Source: Rathayibacter sp. Leaf185
GTDB taxonomy: Bacteria; Actinomycetota; Actinomycetes; Actinomycetales; Microbacteriaceae
Length of the DNA: 64,000 bases
Direction of reading: 5' to 3'
Assembly (NCBI RefSeq): GCF_001423885.1
Contig: NZ_LMPP01000002.1
Span: 780,355-844,354 of the forward strand
The notes beneath the pieces are model-generated. The model did no database searches. It saw only the letters and a program-made list of their open reading frames with translations, and was not told where the DNA came from. A program made the position numbers and the translations under genes. Positions 24,621-39,486 of this stretch are shown here, one piece after another (position 1 is the stretch's first letter; the number at the start of each line of letters is the position of its first letter).

Positions 24621-24755
24621 TGGTGCGGTCTGCAGGCGATGGTGCGCGGTCTGCAGGAGGTGGTGCGGTCTGCAGGAGGTGGTGCGGTCTGCAGGTGATG
24701 GTGCGGTCTGCAGGCGATGGTGCGGTGTGCAGGCGATGGTGCGGTCTGCAGGAGA
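24621..24755. repeat. Tandem array of seven 19-nt units
   Basis: The unit is TGGTGCGGTCTGCAGGCGA. Units start at 24621, 24640 (21 nt, extra GC), 24661, 24680, 24699, 24718 and 24737 and vary mainly in the last three bases (CGA, AGG, TGA, AGA). Each carries the palindrome CTGCAG, except the sixth unit, which has GTGCAG. There are no spacers, so it is not CRISPR. Confidence 0.95.
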
Positions 24756-24804
24756 TCCGGCCCCGTCGAGTCGACGGCATGCGGCGGGAAGCGTGTTCCG
24801 GCTG

Positions 24805-24842
24805 CGAACTCCTGCAGATGGCACGAACTCCTGCAGATCGCA
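24805..24842. repeat. Two inverted copies of the 19-nt unit
   Basis: GAACTCCTGCAGATGGCAC and GAACTCCTGCAGATCGCAC lie head to tail. Their reverse complement (GTGCCATCTGCAGGAGTTC) matches the core of the direct array, so the right end of the gap can fold back on the array. Confidence 0.8.
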
Positions 24843-24894
24843 CGAGTCGCCGGCCCGCAGTCAAGCCCCGGACTCGTGGCCTAGAGTGCCGCTC

Positions 24895-26430
24895 ATGCCC
24901 CCCAGACGAGCCGCACTCCTCGCGATCCTCACGGGGATCGTCGCCGCCGCAGTCGCGCTCGCGAGCGCTGAGCTCGTGGCCGTGTTCACCGGCGCCGGAG
25001 GCAGCCCGCTCGTCGCGGTCGGCGGCTTCGTCATCGACATCGTCCCGCCCGGAGTCAAGGACACCGTCATCGCGCTGTTCGGCACCGCGGACAAGATCGT
25101 CCTGCTGGTCTCGGTCGGCTTCGCGGTCGCGCTCCTCGCGATCGCGGCCGGCCTGCTCGAGTTCCGCAAGCCTCCGCTCGGCGTGCTCGTGCTCGCCGTC
25201 GTCGCGGGCCTCGGTGCCCTCGCCGCCGTCACCCGCGAGGGAGCGCCCGGTCTCGCCGCCGCGCCGAGCGTCGTCGGGATGGTGGTGGGTGCCGCGTTCC
25301 TGCGCGCCGCCGCCGCCCGCCTCCGCGGCTGGGAGGAGGAGCCCGCGCGCGGTGCCACCGACCGCCGCTCCTTCCTCCGGCTCGTCGGCATCGCCGGTGC
25401 CGCCGCCGTCGTGGTCGGCATCGGCGCACGCGTCGTGACCGCCGCCTCCGACGCCGTCACCGCCGTGCGTGCGGCCGTGAAGCTGCCGGCGCCGGCGAGC
25501 ACCGCCCCCGCCGTCCCCGCCGCCGCGGTGCTCGACGACATCGAGGGCATCACTCCGTTCGTCACCTCGAACGCCGACTTCTACCGGATCGACACCGCGC
25601 TCTCGGTGCCGTCCGTCGATCCGGCCGACTGGTCGCTCCGCATCACGGGCATGGTCGAGGAGGAGGTGACGATCACCTGGGACGAGCTGCTCGCGCTCCC
25701 GCTCGAGGAGCACCTGGTCACGCTGTCGTGCGTCTCGAACGAGGTCGGCGGCGACCTGATCGGCACCGCCCTCTGGCTCGGCTACCCGATCCGCGATCTG
25801 CTCGCCCGCGCGCGTCCGCTCGCCGGCGCCGACATGGTGCTGTCGCGCAGTGTCGACGGATTCACGGCGTCGAGCCCGCTCGAGGTCCTGCAGGACGAGG
25901 GCCGGCCGAGCATCGTGGCGGTCGGGATGAACGGCGAGCCGCTGCCCGTCGAGCACGGCTTCCCCGCGCGCCTGGTCGTGCCCGGGCTCTACGGCTACGT
26001 GTCGGCGACCAAGTGGGTCACGGAGCTCAAGGTGACGACCTTCGCCGACGACGTCGCCTACTGGTCGACGCGCGGCTGGACCGAGCGCGGACCGATCAAG
26101 ATCGAGTCCCGGATCGATGTGCCGCGGCAGGGCCAGGCGGTCGCCGCGGGCACCGTCGCGGTCGCCGGAGTCGCCTGGGCGCCGCACACCGGCATCGCGG
26201 GGGTCGAGGTGCAGGTCGACGGGGGCGCCTGGCAGCCCGCTCGCCTCGCCGAGGCCGTCACCGCCGACACCTGGATCCAGTGGCTCTACGAGTGGGAGGC
26301 GATCGCAGGCGACCACGTCCTCCTGGTGCGCGCCACCGACTCCGAGGGCCTCGTGCAGACCCCGGAGGAGGCGCCCCCGGCACCCGACGGAGCCTCCGGC
26401 TGGCACATGCGCACCATCACCGTGGCCTGA
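24895..26430 (+). CDS. Membrane-anchored molybdopterin-dependent oxidoreductase (sulfite-oxidase fold), 511 aa
   Basis: The N-terminal 170 residues hold four to five hydrophobic helices. A basic linker (RGWEEEPARGATDRRSFLRLVG) leads to another helix, then an extracytoplasmic oxidoreductase-molybdopterin-binding domain (about residues 210-390) with the family Cys in LVTLSCVSNEVGG, and a C-terminal Ig-like Mo-co dimerisation domain (GVAWAPHTGIAGVEVQVDGGAWQPA). It therefore probably binds Mo-pterin on the outer face. The substrate is unknown; the SCxSN cysteine is typical of YedY/sulfite-oxidase relatives. The ATG at 24895 is fixed by TAGAGT 7 nt upstream. Repeat element E1 begins at its TGA. 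Confidence 0.9.
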   Translation: MPPRRAALLAILTGIVAAAVALASAELVAVFTGAGGSPLVAVGGFVIDIVPPGVKDTVIALFGTADKIVLLVSVGFAVALLAIAAGLLEFRKPPLGVLVLAVVAGLGALAAVTREGAPGLAAAPSVVGMVVGAAFLRAAAARLRGWEEEPARGATDRRSFLRLVGIAGAAAVVVGIGARVVTAASDAVTAVRAAVKLPAPASTAPAVPAAAVLDDIEGITPFVTSNADFYRIDTALSVPSVDPADWSLRITGMVEEEVTITWDELLALPLEEHLVTLSCVSNEVGGDLIGTALWLGYPIRDLLARARPLAGADMVLSRSVDGFTASSPLEVLQDEGRPSIVAVGMNGEPLPVEHGFPARLVVPGLYGYVSATKWVTELKVTTFADDVAYWSTRGWTERGPIKIESRIDVPRQGQAVAAGTVAVAGVAWAPHTGIAGVEVQVDGGAWQPARLAEAVTADTWIQWLYEWEAIAGDHVLLVRATDSEGLVQTPEEAPPAPDGASGWHMRTITVA

Positions 26431-26530
26431 GCGGGCCTCCGCGCGGCGGCCTGCGGCGTTGTCGTCGGTCGCGATACCGCCGGTATCGCTTCCTCCTCCG
26501 CCTTGCATTCCACCGCGCGGAGTCCCGCTC
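26429..26530. repeat. Structured element E, copy 1
   Basis: The outer stem pairs GAGCGGG-c-CTCCGCGCGG (26429-26446) with CCGCGCGGAG-t-CCCGCTC (26513-26530). The conserved core has GGCGTTGTCGTCGGTC, an apical hairpin GCGATACCG/CGGTATCGC (26471-26479 and 26481-26489) and CTTCCTCCTCCGCCTTGC. It begins inside the TGA of the upstream oxidoreductase gene and ends 35 nt before the ABC-F -10 hexamer. Copies 2 and 3 are at 31580 and 37549. Confidence 0.9.
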
Positions 26531-26564
26531 AGTGCTGCTGGCTCGGCGTGCAAGACCCAGCCGG

Positions 26565-26570
26565 TAAAAT
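26565..26570 (+). promoter_or_regulatory. ABC-F -10 hexamer TAAAAT
   Basis: TAAAAT is the most canonical -10 in the window and ends 8 nt before the ATG at 26579. It indicates a leaderless or near-leaderless transcript. Confidence 0.65.
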
Positions 26571-26578
26571 AGGCCCCT

Positions 26579-28363
26579 ATGGCACATCTGCTGGGCGCCG
26601 AGGCGCTCCGACTCGAGTACCCCACGCGGGTCATCTTCGACGACGTCTCCCTGGGCATCGAGGAGGGCGACAGGATCGGCATCGTCGGACGCAACGGCGA
26701 CGGCAAGTCGACGCTCCTCCGCCTCCTCGCTCAGCGCATCGAGCCCGACAGCGGCCGCGTCACGCACCGCCGGGGCGTCACCCTCGGCATGCTCGACCAG
26801 GCCGACACCGTCGATGAGGAGCTCACCGTCGCGCAGGCCGTGGTCGGCGGCCTCGAGGAGCACGAGTGGGCCGGAGACGCGCGCACCCGCGACGTGATCG
26901 CCGGGCTCCTGCGCGACGTGCCGTGGGACGGCGTCGTCGGCTCGCTCTCCGGAGGCCAGCGCCGCCGCGTCGCCCTGGCCAAGCTGCTCGTCGGCGACTG
27001 GGACGTCGTGTTCCTCGACGAGCCCACGAACCACCTCGACGTCGAGGGCATCGCCTGGCTCGCCGAGCACCTCAAGCGCCGCTGGGCCGCCTCCTCCGGC
27101 GGGCTCGCGGTCGTCACCCACGACCGGTGGTTCCTCGACGAGATCTGCACCGCCACGTGGGAGGTCCACGACCGCCTCGTCGAGCCCTTCGAGGGCGGCT
27201 ACGCGGCGTACATCCTGCAGCGCGTCGAGCGCGACCGGATGGCCTCCACGATGGAGTCCAAGCGCCAGAACCTGATGAAGAAGGAGCTCGCCTGGCTCCG
27301 ACGCGGCGCGCCCGCCCGCACCGCCAAGCCCAAGTTCCGCATCGACGCGGCGAACCAGCTCATCGAGGACGAGCCTCCCGTGCGCGACAAGGTGTCGCTG
27401 TCGCAGCTCGCGGTCTCGCGGCTGGGCAAGGACGTCGTCGACCTGCTCGACGTCACCGTCCGCTACGGCGAGCGGACCGTGCTCAACCGCATCGAGTGGC
27501 GGATCGCCCCGGGCGAGCGCACCGGCATCCTCGGCGTGAACGGCGCCGGCAAGTCGACCCTCCTCGGTCTCGTCGCGGGCAGCGTCCAGCCCACCGGAGG
27601 CAAGGTCAAGCGCGGCACCACGGTCCGCGTCGCGATCCTCGACCAGCAGCTGCGCGAGCTCACGGAGGTGCAGCACCAGCCGGTCCGCGAGATCATCGCG
27701 GAGCAGCGCACCAGCTACTCCATCGGCGGCAAGGAGATGACGCCGGGCCAGCTCCTCGAGCGCCTGGGCTTCTCGAGTGCGCAGCTCTCGACTCCGGTGA
27801 AGGACCTCTCGGGCGGGCAGCGCCGCCGCCTCCAGCTGCTGCTCATCCTGCTCAGCGAGCCGAACGTGCTGATCCTCGACGAGCCGACCAACGACCTCGA
27901 CACCGACATGCTGGCCGCGATCGAGGACCTCCTCGACTCCTGGCCCGGCACCCTGCTCGTCGTCTCGCACGACCGGTACCTGCTCGAGCGCGTCACCGAT
28001 CAGCAGTACGCGGTGATGGACGGCGCGTTCCGTCACCTGCCCGGCGGAGTCGACCAGTACCTCGAGCTGCGCCGCGCGCTCGAGAAGGGGTCGCCGGCCG
28101 CGTCCTCGGGAACCGCCTCCGCCGCCACCCCGGGTCTCGCGGGTGCCGAGCGCCGCACCGCGACCAAGGAGGTGTCGGCGATCGACCGGCGCCTGTCGAA
28201 GCTCGGGCAGCTCACCGCCGACGTGCACGAGAAGATGGCGACCCACGACCCCGACGACTACGACGGCATCCTCGAGCTGAACGCGAAGCTCCGGGCGTAC
28301 GCCGACGAGACCGCCGAGCTCGAGGTGCGCTGGATGGAGCTCTCCGAGCTGCTCGAGGCCTGA
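26579..28363 (+). CDS. ABC-F family ATPase, 594 aa
   Basis: A soluble twin-ABC protein without membrane domains, acting on ribosomes in characterised members. The first Walker A is GRNGDGKST (near 45) with LSGGQRRRVALAKLL and VVFLDEPTNHLD. An interdomain linker follows with MASTMESKRQNLMKKELAWLRRGAPARTAKPKFR. The second Walker A is GVNGAGKST with LSGGQRRRLQLLLILL and DEPTNDLDTDML. The C-terminal 90 residues form a coiled-coil (KEVSAIDRRLSKLGQLTADVHEKM) as in Uup. The pattern suits a Uup/EttA-like translation factor rather than a drug-resistance protein, but this is inference. The gene follows ispE in many actinobacteria. Confidence 0.93.
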   Translation: MAHLLGAEALRLEYPTRVIFDDVSLGIEEGDRIGIVGRNGDGKSTLLRLLAQRIEPDSGRVTHRRGVTLGMLDQADTVDEELTVAQAVVGGLEEHEWAGDARTRDVIAGLLRDVPWDGVVGSLSGGQRRRVALAKLLVGDWDVVFLDEPTNHLDVEGIAWLAEHLKRRWAASSGGLAVVTHDRWFLDEICTATWEVHDRLVEPFEGGYAAYILQRVERDRMASTMESKRQNLMKKELAWLRRGAPARTAKPKFRIDAANQLIEDEPPVRDKVSLSQLAVSRLGKDVVDLLDVTVRYGERTVLNRIEWRIAPGERTGILGVNGAGKSTLLGLVAGSVQPTGGKVKRGTTVRVAILDQQLRELTEVQHQPVREIIAEQRTSYSIGGKEMTPGQLLERLGFSSAQLSTPVKDLSGGQRRRLQLLLILLSEPNVLILDEPTNDLDTDMLAAIEDLLDSWPGTLLVVSHDRYLLERVTDQQYAVMDGAFRHLPGGVDQYLELRRALEKGSPAASSGTASAATPGLAGAERRTATKEVSAIDRRLSKLGQLTADVHEKMATHDPDDYDGILELNAKLRAYADETAELEVRWMELSELLEA

Positions 28364-28382
28364 GGTCCGCCCGACCTCAGCT

Positions 28383-28424
28383 GAGAGTGCCGCTCGCGCG
28401 CCATGGTGCGCGAGCCGCACTCCT
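28383..28424. terminator. Hairpin (family A) between ABC-F and marR
   Basis: AGTGC-c-GCTCGCGC (28386-28399) pairs with GCGCGAGC-c-GCACT (28408-28421), with one C/C mismatch and a loop GCCATGGT. It lies in the 75-bp convergent gap. The core matches the hairpin at 53836-53905. No T-tract follows, so it is a bidirectional terminator of the high-GC type or a REP-like repeat. Confidence 0.75.
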
Positions 28425-28438
28425 GGCTGTTGTCGCGT

Positions 28439-28930
28439 TCAGCCGAAGTCGAGCGAGAGCTTGCGCAGGAGCTGCGCGAGCCGCTCCTGCTGCGCGTGCG
28501 TGAGGGCGCCGAGCAGCTCCTGCTCCGCGTCGACCAGCCGGGTGATCGCCGCGTCGACCCGGGCGAGCCCGGCGGGCGTCATCTGCACGAGCACGCCGCG
28601 TCCGTCGTTCGGGTCGTCGAGGCGCTCGACCAGGTCGCGCTCGACCAGGCGGTCGATGCGGTTGGTCATGGTGCCGCTGGTGACCATGGTCGCCTGCAGC
28701 AGCTGCTTCGGGCTCATCCGGTAGGGGGCACCGGCGCGGCGCAGCGCCGAGAGCACGTCGAACTCCCACGTCTCGAGCTCGGAGCGGCCGAACGCGATGC
28801 CGCGTGCGCGCTCGAGCTGCTTGGCGAGCCTGCGCATGCGCGAGAAGACCTGCAGGGGAGTGAAGTCGAGGTCGGGCCTCTCGCGCACCCAGGCGTCGAC
28901 GATCCCGTCGACCTCGTCATTCGCACTCAC
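28439..28930 (-). CDS. MarR-family transcriptional regulator, 163 aa
   Basis: A winged-helix dimeric regulator. The N-terminal helix carries DEVDGIVDAWVRERPDLDFTPLQVFSRMRRLAKQLER, the wHTH spans about residues 60-115 (MSPKQLLQATMVTSGTMTNRIDRLVERDLVERL), the wing is DDPNDGRGVLVQMTPAG, and a dimerisation helix closes the protein. The start is GTG at 28930, because CAGAAT lies 6 nt before it. Divergent from it are tRNA-Gln and glmU. Which gene it controls is not apparent. Confidence 0.9.
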   Translation of the reverse strand: MSANDEVDGIVDAWVRERPDLDFTPLQVFSRMRRLAKQLERARGIAFGRSELETWEFDVLSALRRAGAPYRMSPKQLLQATMVTSGTMTNRIDRLVERDLVERLDDPNDGRGVLVQMTPAGLARVDAAITRLVDAEQELLGALTHAQQERLAQLLRKLSLDFG

Positions 28931-29024
28931 CCGTCCATTCTGGCGGGTGGCGGGCCGGGAGGCGGCAGGGTGCGGAGGAGGCCGCGGGCGGATGGCAGGA
29001 TGGACGGCGCGCGCGGGAGCGCGG

Positions 29025-29096
29025 TCCGCCATGGTGTAACGGCAGCACGGCAGCCTTTGGAGCTGTCCGGTCCAGGTTCGAATCCTGGTGGCGGAG
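29025..29096 (+). tRNA. tRNA-Gln (anticodon TTG)
   Basis: The acceptor stem TCCGCCA (29025-29031) pairs with TGGCGGA (29089-29095), with discriminator G. The anticodon loop is CTTTGGA on a CAGC/GCTG stem, giving anticodon TTG. The T-arm is CCAGG-TTCGAAT-CCTGG. The 3' CCA is not encoded (the next bases are CAGG). It sits 41 bp upstream of the glmU start and may be co-transcribed with it. Confidence 0.96.
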
Positions 29097-29137
29097 CAGG
29101 GGTCACCCACGCGGCGGGCCTCGGAGGAGAACGAGAC

Positions 29138-30610
29138 ATGGTCGACAGCACGCTCGCGGTGGTGATCCTGGCCGCCGGTCAGGGCACCCGGATGAAGTCC
29201 CGCACCCCGAAGGTCCTGCACAGGCTGGCGGGCCGCCCGCTGCTCGGGCACGTCCTCGACACCGCGTCCTCGCTCGACGCGGCGCACGTGGTCACGGTCG
29301 TGCGCCACGAGCGCGAGCGGGTGGCGGAGGCGGTGCTCGAGCACACTCCCGCCGCCCTCGTGGTCGACCAGGACGACGTCCCCGGCACCGGCCGCGCCGT
29401 CGAGCTCGGCCTCGCCGCTCTGCCCGACGACTTCGACGGGACGGTCGTGGTGCTCAGCGCCGACGTGCCCCTGCTCGACGCGCCGACCCTCCGTCGCCTG
29501 GTCGACGAGCACCTCGTGGCCGCGAACGCTCTGACTATGCTGTCGTGCGTGCTCGAGGACCCGACCGGCTTCGGCCGCATCGTCCGCGCCGTCGACGGCG
29601 GCTTCGCCTCCATCGTCGAGCAGAAGGACGCGAGCGACGACGAGCTCGCCCTCACCGAGACCAACGCGGGGGTCTACGCGTTCGACGCCGCGGCGCTGCG
29701 CTCGGTCATCGGCGCCATCGGCACCGACAACGCCCAGCGCGAGAAGTACCTGACGGATGCCGCCGCCGCGCTCAAGGCCGCCGGCCGCGCCATCGAGGCC
29801 GTCCCCGTGCAGGACCGCTGGCTCGTCGCCGGCATCAACGACCGCGCGCAGCTCGCCGACGCCGCGCTCGAGCTCAACGCCCGCATCGTGCGGCGCTGGC
29901 AGCTCGAGGGCGTCACGATCCAGGATCCGGCGACCACTTGGATCGACGTGGACGCCGTCCTCTCGCCCGACGTCGAGATCCTCCCCGGCACGCAGATCAA
30001 GGGACCGACCGTCATCGCGAGCGGCGCGATCATCGGGCCCGACACCACCCTCGACGCCTGCGAGATCGGCGAGGACGCCGTGGTCAAGCGCTCGGATGCG
30101 ACCCTCGCCGTCATCGGGGCCCGCGCCCAGGTCGGCCCCTTCTCCTACCTCCGCCCCGGCACCGTGCTCGGTGAGCGCGGCAAGATCGGCACCTACGTCG
30201 AGACGAAGAACGCGACCATCGGCGCCGGCTCGAAGGTGCCGCACCTCTCGTACGTCGGCGACGCGACGATCGGCGAGGAGTCGAACATCGGCGCGGGCTC
30301 GATCTTCGCCAACTACGACGGAGTGAGCAAGGCCGCCTCGATCGTGGGGTCGCATGTGCGAGCCGGGTCGCACAACGTCTTCGTCGCCCCCGTTAGAATC
30401 GGCGACGGAGCGTACACGGGCGCCGGCACGGTCATCCGCAAGGACATCCCCGCCGGAGCCCTCGGGATCACCGTCGCTCCGCAGCGCAACATGGCCGGGT
30501 GGGTCGAGGCCCACCGTCCGGGGACCGCGTCGGCCACCGCCGCCGAGGCAGCCCAGGCGTCGGAGTCCGAGGACTCCGACCTGCCCACCGGAGGAAGCGG
30601 AGAACTGTGA
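29138..30610 (+). CDS. glmU: Bifunctional GlmU (GlcN-1-P acetyltransferase / GlcNAc-1-P uridyltransferase), 490 aa
   Basis: It makes UDP-GlcNAc for the cell wall. The N-terminal pyrophosphorylase domain has VVILAAGQGTRMKSRTPKVLH, DQDDVPGTGRAVE, SADVPLL and ETNAGVYAF. The C-terminal left-handed beta-helix has FSYLRPGTVLGERGKIGTYVETKNATIG, GAGSIFANYDG and APVRIGDGAYTGAGTVI. A 30-residue Ala/Ser/Glu tail (TASATAAEAAQASESEDSD) is longer than in E. coli GlmU (456 aa). The start ATG has GGAGGA 9 nt upstream. Its TGA overlaps the GTG of prs (GTGA), making a translationally coupled glmU-prs pair as in many actinobacteria. Confidence 0.97.
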   Translation: MVDSTLAVVILAAGQGTRMKSRTPKVLHRLAGRPLLGHVLDTASSLDAAHVVTVVRHERERVAEAVLEHTPAALVVDQDDVPGTGRAVELGLAALPDDFDGTVVVLSADVPLLDAPTLRRLVDEHLVAANALTMLSCVLEDPTGFGRIVRAVDGGFASIVEQKDASDDELALTETNAGVYAFDAAALRSVIGAIGTDNAQREKYLTDAAAALKAAGRAIEAVPVQDRWLVAGINDRAQLADAALELNARIVRRWQLEGVTIQDPATTWIDVDAVLSPDVEILPGTQIKGPTVIASGAIIGPDTTLDACEIGEDAVVKRSDATLAVIGARAQVGPFSYLRPGTVLGERGKIGTYVETKNATIGAGSKVPHLSYVGDATIGEESNIGAGSIFANYDGVSKAASIVGSHVRAGSHNVFVAPVRIGDGAYTGAGTVIRKDIPAGALGITVAPQRNMAGWVEAHRPGTASATAAEAAQASESEDSDLPTGGSGEL

Positions 30611-31584
30611 CGGCCATCACCGCCAGCAACAAGAAGAGCCTGGTCCTCGTGTCGGGGAGGGCGCATCCGGCACTGGCGGAGCAGGTCGCCGCCGAGCTCG
30701 GCACCGAGCTCGTGAACACCGAGGGCCGGACCTTCGCGAACGGCGAGCTCTACGTGCGGTACGGCGACTCGGTGCGCGGCGGCGACGTGTTCGTCCTGCA
30801 GTCGCACACCTCGCCGATCAACGAGTGGCTCATGGAGCAGCTCATCATGGTCGACGCACTCAAGCGCGCCTCGGCGAAGCGCATCACCGTCGTCGCGCCG
30901 TTCTACCCCTACGCCCGGCAGGACAAGAAGGGCCGCGGGCGCGAGCCGATCTCGGCCCGCCTCGTCGCCGACCTCTTCAAGGCCGCCGGTGCCGACCGCA
31001 TCATGTCGGTCGACCTGCACGCCGCGCAGATCCAGGGCTTCTTCGACGGCCCCGTCGACCATCTCTTCGCGATGCCCGTGCTCCTCGAGCACTTCCGCGA
31101 GAAGCTCGACCCGAAGACCCTCACCATCGTCTCGCCCGACATGGGCCGCGTCCGCGTCGCCGACATCTGGAGCGACAAGCTCGGCGTCCCACTCGCGATC
31201 ATCCACAAGCGCCGCGACCCCAAGGTCGCCAACCAGGTCTCGGTCCACGAGATCGTCGGAGAGGTCTCCGGCCGCGTCTGCCTCCTCGTCGACGACCTCA
31301 TCGACACCGGCCGCACCATCGCCAAGGCCGCAGAGGCCCTCAAGGCAGCGGGTGCCATCGGAGTCGTCGTCGCCGCCACCCACGCGGTCTTCTCCGACCC
31401 CGCCCGCGAACTGCTCAGTTCCGAGTTCATCGACTCGGTCGTCGTGACCGACACCCTCCCCCTGCCCGAGGAGAAGCGCTGGGACCGCCTCACGATCCTC
31501 CCCATCGCCCCGCTGCTCGCGCGAGCGATCCACGAGGTCTTCGATGATGGATCCGTCACCTCCATGTTCGACGGCGACGCCTGA
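30607..31584 (+). CDS. prs: Ribose-phosphate pyrophosphokinase (PRPP synthase), 325 aa
   Basis: It makes PRPP from ribose-5-phosphate and ATP, feeding purine, pyrimidine, His and Trp synthesis. Visible signatures are GRTFANGELYVRY, YARQDKKGRGREPISARLVADL, the Mg-binding SVDLHAAQIQGFFD, SPDMGRVRVAD, and the PRPP loop CLLVDDLIDTGRTI. The GTG start overlaps the glmU stop, with GGAGGAAG 12 nt upstream. Its TGA lies inside the left arm of element E2. PRPP is also the co-substrate of Apt encoded 31 kb away. Confidence 0.97.
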   Translation: MTAITASNKKSLVLVSGRAHPALAEQVAAELGTELVNTEGRTFANGELYVRYGDSVRGGDVFVLQSHTSPINEWLMEQLIMVDALKRASAKRITVVAPFYPYARQDKKGRGREPISARLVADLFKAAGADRIMSVDLHAAQIQGFFDGPVDHLFAMPVLLEHFREKLDPKTLTIVSPDMGRVRVADIWSDKLGVPLAIIHKRRDPKVANQVSVHEIVGEVSGRVCLLVDDLIDTGRTIAKAAEALKAAGAIGVVVAATHAVFSDPARELLSSEFIDSVVVTDTLPLPEEKRWDRLTILPIAPLLARAIHEVFDDGSVTSMFDGDA

Positions 31585-31687
31585 GCGCACCTCGGAGACG
31601 CCATCCGCGGCGTTGTCCTCGATCGCGATACCTCCGGTATCGCTTCCTCGTCCGCCTTGCGGCTGACGCCTCCGAGGCGCGCTCAGG
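31580..31687. repeat. Structured element E, copy 2
   Basis: The outer stem pairs CCTGAGCGC-a-CCTCGGAG (31580-31597) with CTCCGAGG-c-GCGCTCAGG (31670-31687), a different sequence from copies 1 and 3 but equally complementary. The second stem is CCGC/GCGG where copy 3 has CTGC/GCAG. The apical hairpin is GCGATACCT/CGGTATCGC. The prs stop codon TGA (31582-31584) is part of the arm. Confidence 0.9.
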
Positions 31688-31822
31688 ACGGCTGGTGAGG
31701 CTGCCGCGGGCGGCTGGTGAGGCTGCCGGGGTCTGCTGAGCGAGGCTGCCGCCGGCTGCTGAGCGAGGTCGGCGCTACCTGCGGGCGAGGCTGGCGCTGC
31801 CTGCGGGCGAGGCTGGCGCTGC
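31688..31822. repeat. Degenerate tandem repeats, about 22 nt period
   Basis: Six or seven related units occur. The last two, CTGCGGGCGAGGCTGGCGCT-GC at 31779-31800 and 31801-31822, are identical. Earlier ones read GGCTGGTGAGGCTGCCG (twice) and GCTGCTGAGCGAGG. They run directly into the palindromic repeat at 31823. No gene is evident in 31585-31911. Confidence 0.8.
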
Positions 31823-31860
31823 CTGCTGATCGAGTACCCCCGGAGCGGGCGTGGCGGGAT
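31823..31860. repeat. REP-like palindrome (family R, copy 1)
   Basis: CTGCTGATCGAG is followed by CCCC-CGGA-GCGGGCGT. The same block occurs at 37742-37781 in a more perfect form. It is reminiscent of dispersed palindromes that are frequent in high-GC actinobacterial genomes. Confidence 0.7.
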
Positions 31861-31911
31861 CCCCCTGCCTCGGACGGTGGGCGCGTCACCCGGTGCACCT
31901 AGGGTGGGCGA

Positions 31912-33024
31912 GTGGCTGTGCGATCGGATCAGACCCGGACGGGGGGTTCGATGGGCGCGCTCCGGGAGCCCGGTTGGGCGCTCGGGGTGGCGGGTCTGTT
32001 CCTGGTGTGGGCGCCGGCGGCGCGGGAGGCCGGCTGGTGGCTCCTTGTCGGGCTCGGGATCGCGGTGGTCGCCGCGGGGCTCGGAGTCGTCGCCGACGCC
32101 GGTCGGGAGGTTCAGGACGGACCGACAGGGGCGTGGCTGAGGCTCGCGGGACGAGCCCTCGCCTCCGCTGCCATCGCTCTGACGGCCGCGGAATCGGTGC
32201 TCGGCGCGAGTGCGCGGCCGGTCGCGATCCTGCTCCTCGTCGCGGTCACGCTGTTCGTCGTCCGCGGGGGAGTGCTCCGTCCGCGCCTCGCCGTGACGCT
32301 CGGAGCCCTCGTCGGACTCCTGCTGGCCGCCGCGGTCGTGATCGTGCTGCTCGCGCCTCCGGTCGTCAGGTCGTCCGACCTGATCCTGGGCGGCCCGGAG
32401 GGCGCCGTCACCGCGGCCGCCTACCTGCTCCTCCTCGTCGTGCCCGCCGCGCAGCAGGCGACCTCGACCCGCCGATCCCTCCTCCGCCTCGCTGTCGCCG
32501 CCCTCGTCGCCGCTGCGGTCGGCACCGGGCTGCTGCTCCTCGTGGGGCCGGAGGCGCTCGCGGCCTCGGCCACTCCGCTCCGCGCCCTCGCCGAGGGCAC
32601 CGCGGCCACCGTCCCCGTCGCGATCGCGGCGGTCCTGGCCTCCCTCGTCGCGCTCGTCGTGCTGGCACGGCGCGACGGCTCCGCCCTCGTGCGCCTCGCC
32701 GACGAGGGCGAGATCCCCGGGCCGTTCGCCCGGCGCAACCGCCGGACCGGGGTGCCGTCGGCCCTCCAGCTCGTCGTCTGCCTCGTCTCGGTGCTCGCCG
32801 TGGTGATCCTCGATGCGGATGCTCTGCTCGCCTTCGCGGTCGGCGCGGGGCTGGTCGCGTCGATCCTGCGCCGCCTCGACCGGGGTGTGGCGGGTGCGCG
32901 CTGGCCGGCCGTCGTGTCGGCCGCGCTGGCGCTGATCCTCCTGCTCGCGCTGCCGTCGGCGACGGCCGCTGCGGTCGCAATCGTGCTGGCGGGGCTGCTG
33001 ATCGTGCGCTCGTTCCGGCGCTGA
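31912..33024 (+). CDS. APC-superfamily-like integral membrane protein, 370 aa
   Basis: A very hydrophobic protein with about ten to eleven TM segments. Residues near 255-285 (RRDGSALVRLADEGEIPGPFARRNRRTGVPSALQLVV) resemble the cytoplasmic loop after helix 8 of amino-acid/polyamine permeases (aRDGxlPxxfaxvnxrtgtPxxA). No N-terminal GxxxG helix-1 motif of that family is visible and the protein is shorter than typical APC carriers (450-500 aa). It may be a truncated or highly diverged relative. The GTG start at 31912 is set by TAGGGT at 31900-31905, 6 nt upstream. It is convergent with the ROK gene, 6 bp from its end. Confidence 0.75.
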   Translation: MAVRSDQTRTGGSMGALREPGWALGVAGLFLVWAPAAREAGWWLLVGLGIAVVAAGLGVVADAGREVQDGPTGAWLRLAGRALASAAIALTAAESVLGASARPVAILLLVAVTLFVVRGGVLRPRLAVTLGALVGLLLAAAVVIVLLAPPVVRSSDLILGGPEGAVTAAAYLLLLVVPAAQQATSTRRSLLRLAVAALVAAAVGTGLLLLVGPEALAASATPLRALAEGTAATVPVAIAAVLASLVALVVLARRDGSALVRLADEGEIPGPFARRNRRTGVPSALQLVVCLVSVLAVVILDADALLAFAVGAGLVASILRRLDRGVAGARWPAVVSAALALILLLALPSATAAAVAIVLAGLLIVRSFRR

Positions 33025-33030
33025 CCGCGG

Positions 33031-34257
33031 TCAGGCTCCGGCGGCCGCCACATCGTCGAGGACGTGACCGGGGAGCCGCAGCGCCAGCGGATCGGCACGG
33101 ACTCGGTCGAGACCCGAGCGCACGGCCCCGAGGGCGACGGCCTGGTCGCCGAGAGTCGACGCCACGATCCGCGGCACCGGGGCGTGCACGCGTCCGACGA
33201 GCCGCCGGGCCACCTCGGTCAGGAGCGGCTCGGCGGAGGCGGAGAGGGCGCCTCCGACGACGATCAGCGAGACGTCGAGCAGGTTCGCCAGGGTCGCGGC
33301 GATGTTGGCGAGGCGCTCGGCGAGGCGGTCGACGATGTCGCGGGCCAGGGGGTCGCCCGCCGCGGCGGCGGCGAGCACGTGCTCGGCTCCGGGAGCGTCG
33401 ATCCGGTCGAGGAGGGACGCAGGATGGCCGGGGACGGCGAGCGCCTCGTGCGCCCAGACCCGGGCGAGGGCGGCGATGCCCTCGGCCGACCCGACGCCCT
33501 CGACGAGGTCGAGGTAGCGCATCTCGCCGGTGAGCCCGCGGGCGCCGCGCAGCAGCCGGCCGCCGAGGACCACGCCTCCGCCGAGCCGCTCGCCCGAGAG
33601 CAGGGCCACGTAGTCGTCGGACGCGACGGCCGCCCCGCGCCAGCCCTCGGCGAGGGCCGCGAGATTGGCGTCGTTGTCGACCACCGGCTGCCAGCCGCGG
33701 TCGGCGAAGCGGTCGGCGAGCCCGGGGTTCATCACACGCCAGAAGTCGTTGTCGCCCTCGGGGGAGCGGCCCAGGGCGTCGACGGGTGCGGGGACGCCGA
33801 ACGTGATCGCGAGCACGCCGGAGTCGGCGATCCCCGCCTCGGAGAGGGTGCGGTCGAGGACGCGCTCGATGTCGGCGAGGCGGCGCGCGGGGGAGACGTG
33901 CTCGTGCGCCACCGGCTCGGTGCGCCGGCCGACGGGCTCGCCGAGCAGGTCGGCGACGAAGACCCCGACGCTGTGCTGGCCCGCGTCGACGCCCACGACG
34001 GCTCCGGCATCGCGGCGGAGCGAGTAGCGACGGGCGGGACGCCCCTTCACGTAGTCGCCGGCCGCGCGCTGGTTCTCGAGCTCCTGGATCCAGCCGAGCT
34101 CGATCAGGTCGTCGCACACCGCGATGACGGTGGAGCGGGTCAGCCCGGTGCGCTCGATCAGGCCGGAGGCCGTGAGGGGTGCTCCGCTCCAGGCCTGCCC
34201 GAGGACCTCGAGGGCGTTGCGGCGCCGTTGGAACGAGAACGAGCTGCCGTCGGACAT
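33031..34257 (-). CDS. ROK-family transcriptional regulator, 408 aa
   Basis: The N-terminal 75 residues form a winged helix (ALEVLGQAWSGAPLTASGLIERTGLTRSTVIAVCDDLIELGWIQE). The rest is a ROK sugar-kinase-like domain (VVGVDAGQHSVGVFVADLLGEP, ITFGVPAPVD, VVDNDANLAALAEGW). The conserved zinc motif CxCGxxGC expected after the GE(x)RY segment is absent (GLTGEMRYLDLVEGVGSAEGIAAL), which is unusual. The start ATG at 34257 has AGGGAGGT at Shine-Dalgarno distance. It is divergent from a sugar ABC operon across 119 bp containing a palindrome, so it is probably the local repressor, relieved by a sugar. Confidence 0.9.
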   Translation of the reverse strand: MSDGSSFSFQRRRNALEVLGQAWSGAPLTASGLIERTGLTRSTVIAVCDDLIELGWIQELENQRAAGDYVKGRPARRYSLRRDAGAVVGVDAGQHSVGVFVADLLGEPVGRRTEPVAHEHVSPARRLADIERVLDRTLSEAGIADSGVLAITFGVPAPVDALGRSPEGDNDFWRVMNPGLADRFADRGWQPVVDNDANLAALAEGWRGAAVASDDYVALLSGERLGGGVVLGGRLLRGARGLTGEMRYLDLVEGVGSAEGIAALARVWAHEALAVPGHPASLLDRIDAPGAEHVLAAAAAGDPLARDIVDRLAERLANIAATLANLLDVSLIVVGGALSASAEPLLTEVARRLVGRVHAPVPRIVASTLGDQAVALGAVRSGLDRVRADPLALRLPGHVLDDVAAAGA

Positions 34258-34311
34258 CCGCTGCACCTCCCTCTTGACCCCGGGCGGATCGGCTGCAACA
34301 GTACATCGCGT

Positions 34312-34336
34312 ACTAGATTTTCTCATTAGATTTAGT
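34312..34336. promoter_or_regulatory. Candidate ROK operator
   Basis: ACTAGATTT-tctcatt-AGATTTAGT is an imperfect palindrome (7 of 9 positions symmetric) and an AT-rich island in a 70% GC window. It lies between the divergent ROK regulator and ABC operon, near the expected promoters of both. Confidence 0.65.
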
Positions 34337-34376
34337 CGGAACAGCAACTTATCCACGACCCACGGGAGACGACGAC

Positions 34377-35660: not shown

Positions 35661-35716
35661 CCCTCCCCTTCTCCCCACCTCACCGCTGTCCAGAACATCT
35701 CAGAGACGAGACACCC

Positions 35717-36649
35717 ATGGCACTCTCGACACCCACTCGAGCGGAGGCGCGTCCCACCGAGGCGCCCCGCCCGGCCGTCCCGGAGCGGCGCCGGCCGCGC
35801 ACCGACAGGACCTTCCTCCTGTACTTGCTCCCCGCGCTCGTGCTGTTCACGCTCGCGATCACCCTGCCCGCTCTGATGGGCATCTTCTTCAGCTTCACCG
35901 ACTCGATCGGCTTCGGCGAGTGGTCCTTCATCGGGCTGACGAACTACGTGGCGCTGTTCTCGGACCCGGCGATCGCCGCCTCCTACGGCTTCACGGTCCT
36001 GCTCGCCCTGGTCACCGTGCTGGTCGTGAACGTGGTCGCGTTCCTGCTCGCGATCGCGCTGACCTCGCAGATCCGCGGCAAGGTCGCCCTCCGCGCGGTG
36101 TTCGTGCTGCCGATGGTCGTGTCGGGCATCATCATCGCGTTCGTCTTCAACTTCCTCTTCTCGAACTCGCTGCCCGACTTCGCGGCCTCGGTCGGAGCCA
36201 CTCCGCTGGCGACGAGCATGCTCGCCGACCCGAATCTGGCGTGGCTCGCGATCGTGATCGTGACCGCGTGGCAGTCGGTCCCCTCCGCGCTGCTGATCTA
36301 CATCGCCGGGGTGCTCTCGATCCCCGGGGACGTCTACGAGGCCGCCTCGCTCGACGGCGCCTCGAGCTGGGGGCAGCTGCGCTCGATCACCCTCCCGCTG
36401 GTCGCGGGCTACGTCGTGATCAACCTCGTGATCGGGTTCAAGAACTTCCTCAACTCGTACGACATCATCGTCGGCCTCACCGACGGCGGCCCCGGAACCT
36501 CGACGCGCAGTGTCGCGATGACGATCTTCACGGGCTTCACCAGCGGCGACTACGCCTACCAGATGGCCAACGCCACGATCTTCTTCCTCATCGCGCTCGT
36601 GATAGCGCTCGTGCAGTTGCGCGTCTCGCGCGGAAAGGCGGCCTTCTGA
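35717..36649 (+). CDS. Sugar ABC transporter permease (MalF-type), 310 aa
   Basis: A binding-protein-dependent transport inner-membrane component with six TM helices after a 35-residue Pro/Arg-rich cytoplasmic N-terminus. The EAA loop is YEAASLDGASSWGQLRSITLP, the site that contacts the ATPase. The N-terminal signature LLPALVLFTLAITLPALMGIFFSFTD is typical of MalF/UgpA-type sugar permeases. Its TGA overlaps the ATG of the next permease by 1 bp (TGATG). Confidence 0.94.
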   Translation: MALSTPTRAEARPTEAPRPAVPERRRPRTDRTFLLYLLPALVLFTLAITLPALMGIFFSFTDSIGFGEWSFIGLTNYVALFSDPAIAASYGFTVLLALVTVLVVNVVAFLLAIALTSQIRGKVALRAVFVLPMVVSGIIIAFVFNFLFSNSLPDFAASVGATPLATSMLADPNLAWLAIVIVTAWQSVPSALLIYIAGVLSIPGDVYEAASLDGASSWGQLRSITLPLVAGYVVINLVIGFKNFLNSYDIIVGLTDGGPGTSTRSVAMTIFTGFTSGDYAYQMANATIFFLIALVIALVQLRVSRGKAAF

Positions 36650-37548
36650 TGACCAGCCAGGTCCCCCTCGCCCCGTCCCTCCCCGGGACCCGGGCGGCGG
36701 CCGACGCCGACGCCCGCCGCGGCTCTCGACGCAAGCGCTCGAGCCTGCTCCTCACCATCGTGCTCGCGATCTGCGCTCTCTCGGTGATCGGCCCGCTCTG
36801 GGTCACGCTGACCATGGCGTTCAAGACCACGGCCCAGGCGGTCGACGGCAACGCCTTCTCGATCCCGCTGCCGTTCTCGGTCGAGGGCTTCGTGCAGGCA
36901 TGGAACCTCACCGACTTCCCCCGCGGCTTCGCCATCTCGGTGCTCGTCTCGGCGATCACGGTGGCCGGCACGATCGTCCTCAGCGCACTCGCGGCGTTCG
37001 CGATCTCGCGCAACTGGAGCAAGCGCTTCTACCGCTGGTCGTTCTTCTACCTGCTGGCGGCGATGTTCCTGCCGTTCCCGGTGCTCGCGCTCTCTCAGGT
37101 GTCGCTCACCGGCCTGGTCGGCCTCGACAACCCGATCGGCGTCGCGATCCTGCACGTGATGTTCCAGCTCTCGTTCAGCGTGATGCTGTTCACCGCGTTC
37201 CTCCGCTCGCTGCCGGAGGAGCTCGAGGAGAGCGCGCGCCTCGACGGGGCGACGACGAACCAGGTGTTCTGGCGGCTGGTGTTCCCGCTGCTCGCGCCGA
37301 TGAGCGCGACGGTCGGCATCTTCGCCTTCCTCGCCTCCTGGAACGACTTCATGATGCCGTCGCTGATCACCTCCGACCCGTCGCTGCAGACGCTGCCGGT
37401 GCTGCAGAAGATCTTCCAGACGCAGTTCAGCAACGACTACAACGTGGCGTTCGCGTCGTACCTGATGGCCATGGCGCCGGCGATCATCGTCTACCTCTTC
37501 ACGCAGCGGTGGGTCATGTCCGGCGTCACTCAGGGCGCCATCAAGTGA
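36649..37548 (+). CDS. Sugar ABC transporter permease (MalG-type), 299 aa
   Basis: The partner of the preceding permease, also with six TM helices. Its EAA loop is LEESARLDGATTNQVFWRLVFPLL. The first helix is preceded by a basic SRRKRSS stretch. The C-terminus RWVMSGVTQGAIK is the classic MalG-family ending (Vxx-L-GAVK). The stop TGA begins repeat element E3. The GH13 gene follows after 288 bp. Confidence 0.94.
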   Translation: MTSQVPLAPSLPGTRAAADADARRGSRRKRSSLLLTIVLAICALSVIGPLWVTLTMAFKTTAQAVDGNAFSIPLPFSVEGFVQAWNLTDFPRGFAISVLVSAITVAGTIVLSALAAFAISRNWSKRFYRWSFFYLLAAMFLPFPVLALSQVSLTGLVGLDNPIGVAILHVMFQLSFSVMLFTAFLRSLPEELEESARLDGATTNQVFWRLVFPLLAPMSATVGIFAFLASWNDFMMPSLITSDPSLQTLPVLQKIFQTQFSNDYNVAFASYLMAMAPAIIVYLFTQRWVMSGVTQGAIK

Positions 37549-37654
37549 GCCCGCGGGTCTCGGGGCGGCCATCTGCGGCGTTGTCGTCGGTCGCCGTAGC
37601 TCCGCTACGACTCCCTCCTCCGCCTTGCAGCTCACCACCCCGAGACCCGCGGGC
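37549..37654. repeat. Structured element E, copy 3
   Basis: The outer stem is a perfect 17-bp pair, GCCCGCGGGTCTCGGGG (37549-37565) with its complement (37638-37654), unrelated in sequence to the arms of copies 1 and 2. The core is conserved, but the apical hairpin is CGTAGC/GCTACG instead of GATACC/GGTATC, with at least three compensatory pair changes. It starts one base after the TG of the permease stop codon (TGAGCCC). Confidence 0.92.
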
Positions 37655-37836
37655 GCGACTCCGGGGTAGCGGGGGAGTGGCCGCGCTGCGCGCGAGCCGG
37701 TGGGGAGGGGCCGTGCTGCGCGCGAGCCGGGCGAGCGAGTTCTGCTGATCGAGCAGCCCGCGCAGCGGGCGTAGCGAGGTCGGTGTCCTCAGCGGGGTGA
37801 CCCGGACGAATCAGATCGATCAACGGAAGGAAACAC
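37655..37836. other. Gap before the GH13 gene with short repeats and a REP-like palindrome
   Basis: GCTGCGCGCGAGCCGG occurs twice (about 37685 and 37714). A palindromic repeat follows at 37742-37781: CTGCTGATCGAGCA-GCCCGC-GCA-GCGGGC-GTAGCGAGGTC, the better copy of the sequence at 31823. A GGAAGG Shine-Dalgarno lies before the GTG at 37837. No gene is evident. Confidence 0.75.
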
Positions 37837-39486
37837 GTGACAGACACGGTGCTCACCAGGAGCGGGACGACGGACGACGCCCTGTGGTGGCGGCAGGCGG
37901 CGGTGTACCAGATCTATCCGCGGAGCTTCGCGGATGCGAACGGGGACGGGATCGGCGATCTGGCCGGGATCATCCAGCGCATCCCGTACCTCCGCGCGCT
38001 CGGGATCGACGCGGTCTGGCTCAGCCCGTTCTACCCGTCGGCGCTCGCCGACGGCGGCTACGACGTGGCCGACTATCGCGACGTCGACCCGCGGATCGGC
38101 ACGCTCGCCGAGTTCGACGAGATGACGGCGCTGCTGCACGACGCCGGGATCCGCGTGATCGTCGACATCGTGCCGAACCACTCCTCCGATCTGCACCCGT
38201 GGTTCCAGGAGGCGCTCGCCGCCCCGAAGGGATCGCCCGAGCGCGAGCGCTACGTGTTCCGCGACGGCCGCGGCGAGTCGGGGGAGCTGCCTCCCAGCGA
38301 CTGGGAGTCGGTCTTCGGCGGTCCCGCCTGGGAGCCGGTCGGCGACGGCCAGTGGTACCTGCACCTGTTCGCCAAGGAGCAGCCCGACTGGAACTGGGAC
38401 AACCGCGAGATCCGCGACGACTTCCTCGAGACCCTCCGCTTCTGGTCCGACCGCGGTGTCGACGGGTTCCGCATCGACGTCGCGCACTCGCTGGTGAAGG
38501 ATCTGACCGAGCCGCTCGCCGCCTCCGCCGACCTCGTCGAGCAGCGCCTCGACGGCAGCCACCCGTTCTGGGACCGCGACGAGGTGCACGAGGTGTACGC
38601 CGAGTGGCGCGCCCTCTTCGACTCGTACGATCCGCCGCGCACCGCGGTGGCGGAGGCGTGGGTCGACGCGTCCAGGCGCGCCCGGTACGCGAGCCCCGAG
38701 GGCCTCGGTCAGGCGTTCAACTTCGATCTGCTCGAGGCCGACCTCGACGCCGGCACCTTCCGCCGGCTGATCTCGTTCAACCTCGAGCTGGCCGCCGAGT
38801 CGGGCTCGTCGACGACCTGGGTGCTCTCGAACCACGACGTGGTCCGGCACGCGACCCGCTACGGGCTGCCCTCGCAGGGCGAGGCTCCGATCGCCCCCGC
38901 GAAGCAGTGGCTGCTGAGCGGTGGCGCGGAGCCGGCTCTCGATCGCGAGAAGGGCCTGCGTCGCGCGCGCGCTGCGACCCTGCTGCTCCTCGCCCTGCCC
39001 GGTTCGGCGTACCTCTACCAGGGCGAGGAGCTCGGCCTGCACGAGGTCGCCGGCATCCCCGACGCCGACCGCCAGGATCCGACGTTCTTCCGCAGCGGCG
39101 GCACCGACGTCGGCCGCGACGGCTGCCGGGTGCCGCTGCCGTGGGAGTCGACGGGCACGTCCTTCGGCTTCGGTCCGGGCGGCGCCCACCTGCCCCAGCC
39201 CGCCTGGTTCGCCGACGCCTCCGTCGAGGCCGAGGAGCTGAGGGAGGAGTCGACCCTGTCGCTCTACCGCCGCGCCCTCGCCCTGCGGCACGCGCTGCAG
39301 ACCGACGAGCAGCTGGAATGGCGCGACAGCGCGGAGGGCGTGCTGCACTTCGCGCGCCCGAACGGCTGGCGCTCGGTGACCAACCTCGGCGCCTCCGACG
39401 TCGCGCTGCCCGAGGGCGAGATCCTGCTGGCGAGCGGACCGCTCGATCGCGTGCTGCCTCCGGACACCACCGTCTGGCTGCGCTGA
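37837..39486 (+). CDS. GH13 alpha-glucosidase (oligo-1,6-glucosidase type), 549 aa
   Basis: It hydrolyses alpha-glucosides imported by the adjacent ABC system. The N-terminus has WWRQAAVYQIYPRSFADANGDGIGDLAGI. Catalytic residues are the nucleophile Asp214 (GFRIDVAH), the acid/base Glu273 (AVAEAWV) and Asp334 (LSNHDVVRH). LVDxVxNH-type region I is VDIVPNHSSD. The length and QIYPRSF start place it with GH13 alpha-glucosidases. The enzyme lacks a signal peptide, so it works in the cytoplasm. The GTG is preceded by GGAAGGAAACAC. A strong hairpin follows the stop. Confidence 0.95.
   Translation: MTDTVLTRSGTTDDALWWRQAAVYQIYPRSFADANGDGIGDLAGIIQRIPYLRALGIDAVWLSPFYPSALADGGYDVADYRDVDPRIGTLAEFDEMTALLHDAGIRVIVDIVPNHSSDLHPWFQEALAAPKGSPERERYVFRDGRGESGELPPSDWESVFGGPAWEPVGDGQWYLHLFAKEQPDWNWDNREIRDDFLETLRFWSDRGVDGFRIDVAHSLVKDLTEPLAASADLVEQRLDGSHPFWDRDEVHEVYAEWRALFDSYDPPRTAVAEAWVDASRRARYASPEGLGQAFNFDLLEADLDAGTFRRLISFNLELAAESGSSTTWVLSNHDVVRHATRYGLPSQGEAPIAPAKQWLLSGGAEPALDREKGLRRARAATLLLLALPGSAYLYQGEELGLHEVAGIPDADRQDPTFFRSGGTDVGRDGCRVPLPWESTGTSFGFGPGGAHLPQPAWFADASVEAEELREESTLSLYRRALALRHALQTDEQLEWRDSAEGVLHFARPNGWRSVTNLGASDVALPEGEILLASGPLDRVLPPDTTVWLR

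Follow-up and report, generated by a model that had tools for sequence, protein, structure and literature searches.

Hairpin repeats of about 107 bases behind stop codons in Rathayibacter: distribution, compensatory change and strand asymmetry

Described hairpin repeats and the three elements of the window

REP and BIME sequences are short dispersed hairpins behind genes, occurring in many copies and in tandem arrays. At the foot of the REP hairpin a conserved tetranucleotide of the GTAG type is found, and REP elements are copied by RAYT enzymes. The family described here is similar, since it also consists of short dispersed hairpins behind genes, with many copies and tandem arrays. In contrast, its unit is longer (107 nt), its conserved core is a different one and the genome of Rathayibacter sp. 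Leaf185 is without a PF01797 enzyme. A REP element mobilised by RAYT was rejected as explanation, as PF01797 was not found in this genome (the control gave a signal in 5/14). With intrinsic terminators the family shares the hairpin directly behind the stop codon, but the elements E1, E2 and E3 described below have no T-run, carry conserved nucleotides inside and are weaker on the sense strand.

Similarities also exist to BOX, RUP and other small repeats of Streptococcus pneumoniae. In the available part of the source these are small interspersed elements seen as parasitic, and BOX encodes the stop codon of the upstream gene in 36 cases (PMC3049150). The form of our family with terminal inverted repeats (TIRs) is likewise MITE-like. 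The copies of Rathayibacter differ, as they are mostly found in one orientation and without TIRs: an outer inverted repeat within 140 nt was detected for 5/95 of them, most of these five in multi-copy loci, vs 40/89 named loci, the other 49/89 having none at this stringency.

Among the available parts of PMC11109978, PMC10969869 and PMC3049150, the nearest published motif is MRSC-65-2. It is described there as a single long covarying stem of diverse phyla, often with dozens of copies per genome, thought to be selfish and possibly present in a DNA form (PMC11109978). The single long covarying stem, the multiple copies and the occurrence in several phyla are common to both. The repeated UYCCGG of MRSC-65-2 is, in a comparison by description, not visible as a repeat in our consensus. 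As far as the available part of PMC11109978 goes, the family may be identical with MRSC-65-2 or with another of the 250 mobile or repeat candidates listed in that paper. No description of the core was noticed in the part of the matching papers that was at hand, which is a weak negative.

The window, i.e. the whole analysed stretch of 64,000 nucleotides (assembly GCF_001423885.1, contig NZ_LMPP01000002.1, forward-strand positions 780,355 to 844,354), contains E1, E2 and E3 (Table 1). The original prediction, which regarded them as three copies of an undescribed structured RNA with a conserved core, is partly supported. The look-alike copies were confirmed at the places named, and their fold is far beyond that of shuffled sequences: for each copy, 0/200 dinucleotide shuffles were as good (z in Table 1). 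The proposed 5' core string has just three exact matches in the window, at 26455, 31609 and 37577; if up to three mismatches are allowed, 29 matches were counted vs 9.5 expected. The 3' string as written fits all three copies, but only with two mismatches (5 matches vs 0.59 expected with up to three). The ends of the copies had been placed differently and 17-18 paired arm positions had been described; the places stand, but the covariance model gave other extents (Table 1) and the outer pairing is mostly 25-28 nt long. The comparison with Rfam agreed with an undescribed element. At the gathering threshold only a tRNA was found in the window, and at E values up to 10 E1 gave ten sub-threshold matches, several of them to animal or viral microRNA hairpin families, with a best E of 0.05 and none credible.

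Table 1 Position of E1, E2 and E3, their parts and their neighbouring genes in the window
Feature	Position	Strand	Remark
E1, whole hairpin unit	26427..26533	+ (core orientation)	stabler fold on -; covariance model 103.9 bits; fold z -7.78
E2, whole hairpin unit	31581..31687	+	covariance model 102.4 bits; fold z -7.26
E3, whole hairpin unit	37549..37655	+	covariance model 101.4 bits; fold z -5.53
E1, conserved core	26453..26506	+	GCGGCGTTGTC...TCCGCCTTGC with apical hairpin
E2, conserved core	31607..31660	+	compensated C-G replaces G-C (TTGTCC / CGTCC)
E3, conserved core	37575..37628	+	
E1, 5' outer arm	26427..26452	+	passes through stop codon
E1, 3' outer arm	26507..26532	+	
TGA stop upstream of E1	26428..26430	+	molybdopterin oxidoreductase gene; within outer stem
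TGA stop upstream of E2	31582..31584	+	ribose-phosphate pyrophosphokinase gene; within outer stem
TGA stop upstream of E3	37546..37548	+	ABC-permease gene; adjoining outer stem
Gene upstream of E1	24679..26430	+	Oxidored_molyb
Gene downstream of E1	26579..28363	+	two ABC_tran domains; same direction
Gene upstream of E2	30499..31584	+	ribose phosphate pyrophosphokinase domains
BPD_transp_1 match upstream of E3	36556..37548	+	inside open frame 35530-37548
Gene downstream of E3	37837..39486	+	Alpha-amylase; same direction

Downstream of E2 a run of imperfect GGCTGGTGAGGCTGCCG-like repeats was observed (window positions 31690-31830). Within 83 kb around the window (G000:C2:776650-859512) 6/16 copies of the genome are located, and contig G011:C23 likewise has a cluster of E1, E2, E3 and one further copy.

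Copies, hosts and compensatory change

In the 4.1 Mb genome of strain Leaf185, 15 exact matches to the core pattern were found vs 0 for the reversed pattern, and the covariance model, which was built from 46 hand-picked sequences, gave 16 matches including E1-E3. Building such a model and searching related genomes, as proposed with the original prediction, yielded 175 matches in 15/15 Rathayibacter genomes, with 4 to 22 in each. The core pattern was present in 16/40 genomes: all 15 of Rathayibacter, that of Leaf185 included, and one of another genus of the family. Under stricter filters, the covariance model detected the element in 7/150 genomes and 4/85 genera of the family sample, again counting the genome of Leaf185.

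Beyond the family, the scan of named genomes with the core pattern gave at least 118 stretches. Most of them, set side by side, share the core and an apical hairpin, and roughly fifteen look, by reading, like chance matches in coding sequence. Among the matches listed, core and apical hairpin occur in Streptomyces, Pseudonocardia, Micromonospora, Nocardioides, Frigoribacterium, Blautia and other Lachnospiraceae, Thiomonas, Azonexus and others. A 64-nt query matched 43 plasmid records, 39 of them of Streptomyces, mostly without an annotated feature beneath the match. In the phage collection only short partial matches in mycobacterial and Rhodococcus tail genes were obtained; none covered 80% of the query and they were taken as chance. 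A widespread family of hairpin repeats of about 107 bases is well supported. All-against-all comparison of the open frames around the named loci was also carried out, and a shared neighbour protein was rejected, since the 25 largest clusters are mainly translations of this repeat itself and common enzymes. Locus L310:512-908 carries a tandem array of four copies about 100 nt apart; L294:800-1327 gave four weak matches, one of them in the orientation opposite to the other three, which are head to tail.

Of 142 sequences folded for the analysis of the structure, the arm filter retained 127. From these, 50 were chosen by hand, of which 46 form the alignment A1; the other four, L063, L066, L076 and L095, have long apical hairpins and were left out. 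In the unit, an asymmetric conserved core separates the apical hairpin from the outer arms; hairpin and arms are variable, the arms being of almost constant length. On the better-folding strand the core reads GCAAGGCGGAGGAG...GACAACGCCGC; it includes an AA bulge, the internal loop GA/GACAA and G.A mismatches in tandem. The conserved internal loop described before is supported. That the two core strings are invariant in A1 follows from the search pattern. TTGTC, CGCC and TTGC are each present in more than 90% of 112 model matches, which overstates the conservation too, as the model was built from pattern-selected sequences. At least one of the 112 (L014:1572-1678) is the reverse strand of another match.

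That pairing is kept while the sequence changes was borne out. Over the 38 pairs of A1, 77.8% of the cells pair vs 54.7% after shuffling, and two-sided changes were counted in 424 cells vs 168 +/- 11 in shuffled alignments. The covariation score is 0.502 vs 0.154 +/- 0.010 in shuffles, and it falls to 0.10-0.14 when the partner is slid by 1-3 columns. A cruder count of pairs with any two-sided change in A1 was not above the shuffles (32 vs 30.9). The pair closing the internal loop (A1 columns 38/79) is G-C in 39, C-G in 6 and A-U in 1 of the 46 sequences. Furthermore, one orthologous site with 11 distinct copies, from ten genus genomes and one named contig, shows compensated changes in 10/26 arm columns. 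Pairing is therefore kept by compensatory change both across phyla and in place at a single orthologous site, and selection on pairing, claimed from the comparison of the three copies, is supported in both ways.

The outer pairing reaches 25-28 nt from the core in 62/95 copies, drops to background beyond 26 nt, and had no extent by this measure in 14/95. The arms had been regarded as different sequences in each copy. They do differ and are nevertheless paired, but they are partly related: among the 15 copies of the genome of Leaf185 they are 43-46% identical vs 33% by composition, which amounts to a weak consensus. At positions -3, -6, -10, -11 and -17 specific mismatches are kept in many copies. 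An origin of the arms as inverted copies of the gene end was considered, as the pairing crosses stop codons and, at L006, coding sequence; it is not proven, because the arms share this weak consensus across loci.

Placement, gain and loss, and the folding strand

In all 14 loci of the Leaf185 genome that were examined, the core lies 17-42 nt after the stop codon of a long frame and in sense orientation. Among the 112 model matches, 83 are preceded on the same strand by a stop codon that closes a frame of 120 codons or more and lies 8-60 nt upstream of the core; for 76 of the 83 the distance is 23-35 nt. The controls gave 19/112 for the mirrored side and 59/560 for random positions. Many of the 29 matches without a nearby upstream stop are in multi-copy loci. 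As the outer pairing mostly extends over 25-28 nt, the stem begins at or beside the stop codon.

The copies are also aligned with replication. In five genomes with dnaA placed and the terminus taken as opposite, 54/58 copies were co-oriented, or 42/45 sites with tandems collapsed, orthologous sites not being independent in these counts. The 58 copies are the listed ones of 65 model matches, three positions in G003 coming from the core-pattern search; the four copies against replication are located in G010 (one) and G002 (three). For comparison, 93/150 listed ABC-domain genes in two of the five genomes were co-oriented (Fisher p 3e-5 vs 42/45 sites).

In Streptomyces, Lachnospiraceae and Thiomonas the core is often part of small elements that have inverted repeats at their ends and CTAG next to them; either orientation occurs. 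The features of MITEs, terminal inverted repeats and CTAG flanking many ends, are found in copies outside Rathayibacter. The Rathayibacter copies, E1-E3 included, have with few exceptions no TIRs outside the hairpin. Their unit is mostly free of TIRs, in one orientation, and combines the same core with different arms of weak consensus. From a list of 41 TIR loci, 3 were too near to a contig end; of the 38 tested, 28 have an element end at which a frame of 100 codons or more terminates, and 29/35 such stops are TAG. These 28 show no orientation bias, with the frame on the left only in 10, on the right only in 11 and on both sides in 7. The position of the TIR elements is thus explained by CTAG targeting and tolerance of insertion at TAG stops. 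In the eight genomes searched for the Streptomyces-type TIR, the matches ranged from a single one in each direction to 30 forward and 26 reverse. The search for an autonomous partner of the Streptomyces TIR elements returned only short TIR pairs among the matches listed. In the Streptomyces genome of L075 (G046) about 22 TIR pairs at the same spacing, about 164 bp, were among the matches listed, and this equal spacing suggests recent activity.

The sites are gained and lost. E1 is present in 2/15 genus genomes; in the other 13 no core was found between this place and the next gene. Other sites are occupied in from two to nearly all of ten genomes compared. By reading, L002 and L007 have common arms, and hence the whole unit moved. 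Mobility of the family may be concluded from these presence and absence patterns and from the shared arms. L207, the ortholog in G003 of the L013 site, carries a shortened remnant behind the stop codon with part of the core gone, as judged by reading. Species without the element carry other palindromic repeats in the same slots, for example GCGAGATGCCACTTGTG...CACAAGTGGCATCTCGC and CAGGAGTTGTCGCAC...GTGCGACAACTCCTG (L144, L156, L217-L219, L221), and the ends of orthologous genes look like a hot spot for unrelated palindromes. Outside Rathayibacter the element lies behind genes read as sufC and livF in the locus pairs L127/L130 and L052 (Azonexus)/L110, which suggests old gene-linked copies.

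Further downstream, a separate hairpin was seen by reading at sites 2, 5 and 7 in some filled and some empty genomes: at site 2 in L002 (filled) and L204, L235 and L236 (empty), at site 5 in L017 and L311 (filled) and L232 (empty), and at site 7 in L007 and L237 (filled) and L206 (empty). In some filled genomes it is invisible at these sites. A scan of 26000-38500 for terminator-like sites gave none at E1-E3 and no T-run. Both results argue against the element as terminator of the upstream gene. Insertion of the core into the loops of pre-existing terminators was rejected as well, in view of the downstream hairpin in filled and empty genomes and the common arms of L002 and L007.

On the strand opposite to the gene the fold is stabler. 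With RNA energies this holds for 90/92 genus copies (mean -76.7 vs -64.4 kcal/mol) and for 93/96 other copies with chance matches kept (mean -68.4 vs -53.4 kcal/mol), with DNA energies for 88/92 and 89/96, orthologous sites again not being independent. Single mismatches flanked by Watson-Crick pairs, read on the gene's strand, are A.C vs G.T in a ratio of 101 to 3 for 54 elements, all from Rathayibacter except one from the other pattern-positive genus of the family. For 65 other elements, kept if at least 13/26 arm positions pair, the ratio is 90 to 9. A.C on the gene's strand means G.T or G.U on the opposite strand. At one orthologous site, where every A.C and G.T mismatch of the arms was counted, the ratio is 30 to 2, and C.A stands between C-G and T-A states. 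The excess is concentrated in five columns; all other pairs together give 76 to 77, and the apical helix has more G.T than A.C (13 to 3). This agrees neither with an RNA of the sense strand nor with a simple antisense RNA. The strands clearly differ in stability; the working strand is likely the one opposite to the gene, and the working form may be either RNA or single-stranded DNA.

Possible roles of the family

The comparisons above establish the family as such, the existence of two forms, the placement, the compensatory change and the difference in stability between the strands. As explanation we tentatively favour a mobile or once-mobile palindromic family, which is kept at gene ends as a boundary hairpin on the antisense side; this role is inferred from the better-folding strand, from where the copies lie and from the persistence of an old site. 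Folding of the strand opposite to the gene would take place either in RNA arriving from downstream, in convergent or antisense transcripts, or in single-stranded DNA. So folded, this strand would mark the 3' boundary of the gene and keep downstream transcription out of it, and copies at gene ends would be retained through this fold. Both neighbours share the direction of the element in 16/52 cases (crude gene finder), and antisense transcription must be assumed there. In the TIR form, an element inserted at a stop codon would do no harm owing to its built-in hairpin; as these elements have no orientation bias, the boundary role would not hold for them in quite this manner.

Nearly as likely as the boundary hairpin, though in itself doubtful, is a purely selfish repeat. 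In this case an enzyme would recognise the folded strand as single-stranded DNA and copy the unit, like RAYT with REP, and the stop codon would only be a place where insertion is tolerated. Presence and absence at orthologous sites, the movement of the whole unit seen in L002 and L007, tandem copies, the strong replication-strand bias and the sharing of the core by TIR elements from several phyla all agree with it. However, the Y1 transposase (PF01797) is missing among the results for the genome of Leaf185, the 25 largest clusters of neighbour proteins are mainly translations of this repeat itself and common enzymes, and selfish spread alone would not require the compensatory changes by which an old site has stayed paired in ten genus genomes.

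The boundary reading can be widened to a previously undescribed structured nucleic acid working in antisense: a portable 3'-boundary module with a core maintained in several phyla. Various small TIR elements would have spread it between bacteria, and in Rathayibacter it would have been domesticated where leading-strand genes have their stop codons. We consider this wider version rather unlikely.

Clearly less probable is an RNA of the sense strand, i.e. a terminator or 3'-end stabiliser of the upstream mRNA, which the original prediction had included among its options. The sense orientation from the stop codon in all 14 examined loci of Leaf185 and in most genus copies, the extreme z-scores of the + strand and the G.T lead in the apical helix (13 to 3) are in line with such an RNA. 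Against it, the + strand is the weaker one in 90/92 copies, by about 12 kcal/mol on average, the scan of 26000-38500 gave no terminator-like site at E1-E3, and the separate downstream hairpin occurs at three sites in some genomes with and some without the element. In addition, the element of L127/L130 lies between two co-directional genes, and the downstream one begins 40 and 54 nt beyond the core. The terminator and the 3'-UTR stabiliser are thus disfavoured. The structured RNA of the prediction stands as to its structure, but the better fold is on the strand opposite to the one read, and a dispersed repeat that is gained and lost is not a gene-specific RNA. Least probable of all is a DNA cruciform or neutral quasi-palindrome without strand preference, the pairing of which would be kept by templated repair or by a protein binding extruded double-stranded DNA: G.T and A.C are equal outside the five columns and the position and replication biases are DNA-level features, but templated correction should erase mismatches, yet -3, -6, -10, -11 and -17 keep specific ones, and the conserved loops and the strong strand asymmetry in stability contradict it too.

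Hairpins dispersed at the ends of genes are frequent, and most of them lack an explanation. Unusual in this family are the strongly conserved core shared by several phyla, the compensatory evolution at a single site, the clear preference for the fold of the antisense strand and the close placement relative to stop codons and replication. With this family two questions become testable: whether such repeats guard genes from downstream transcription, and how one hairpin core rides in different TIR elements.
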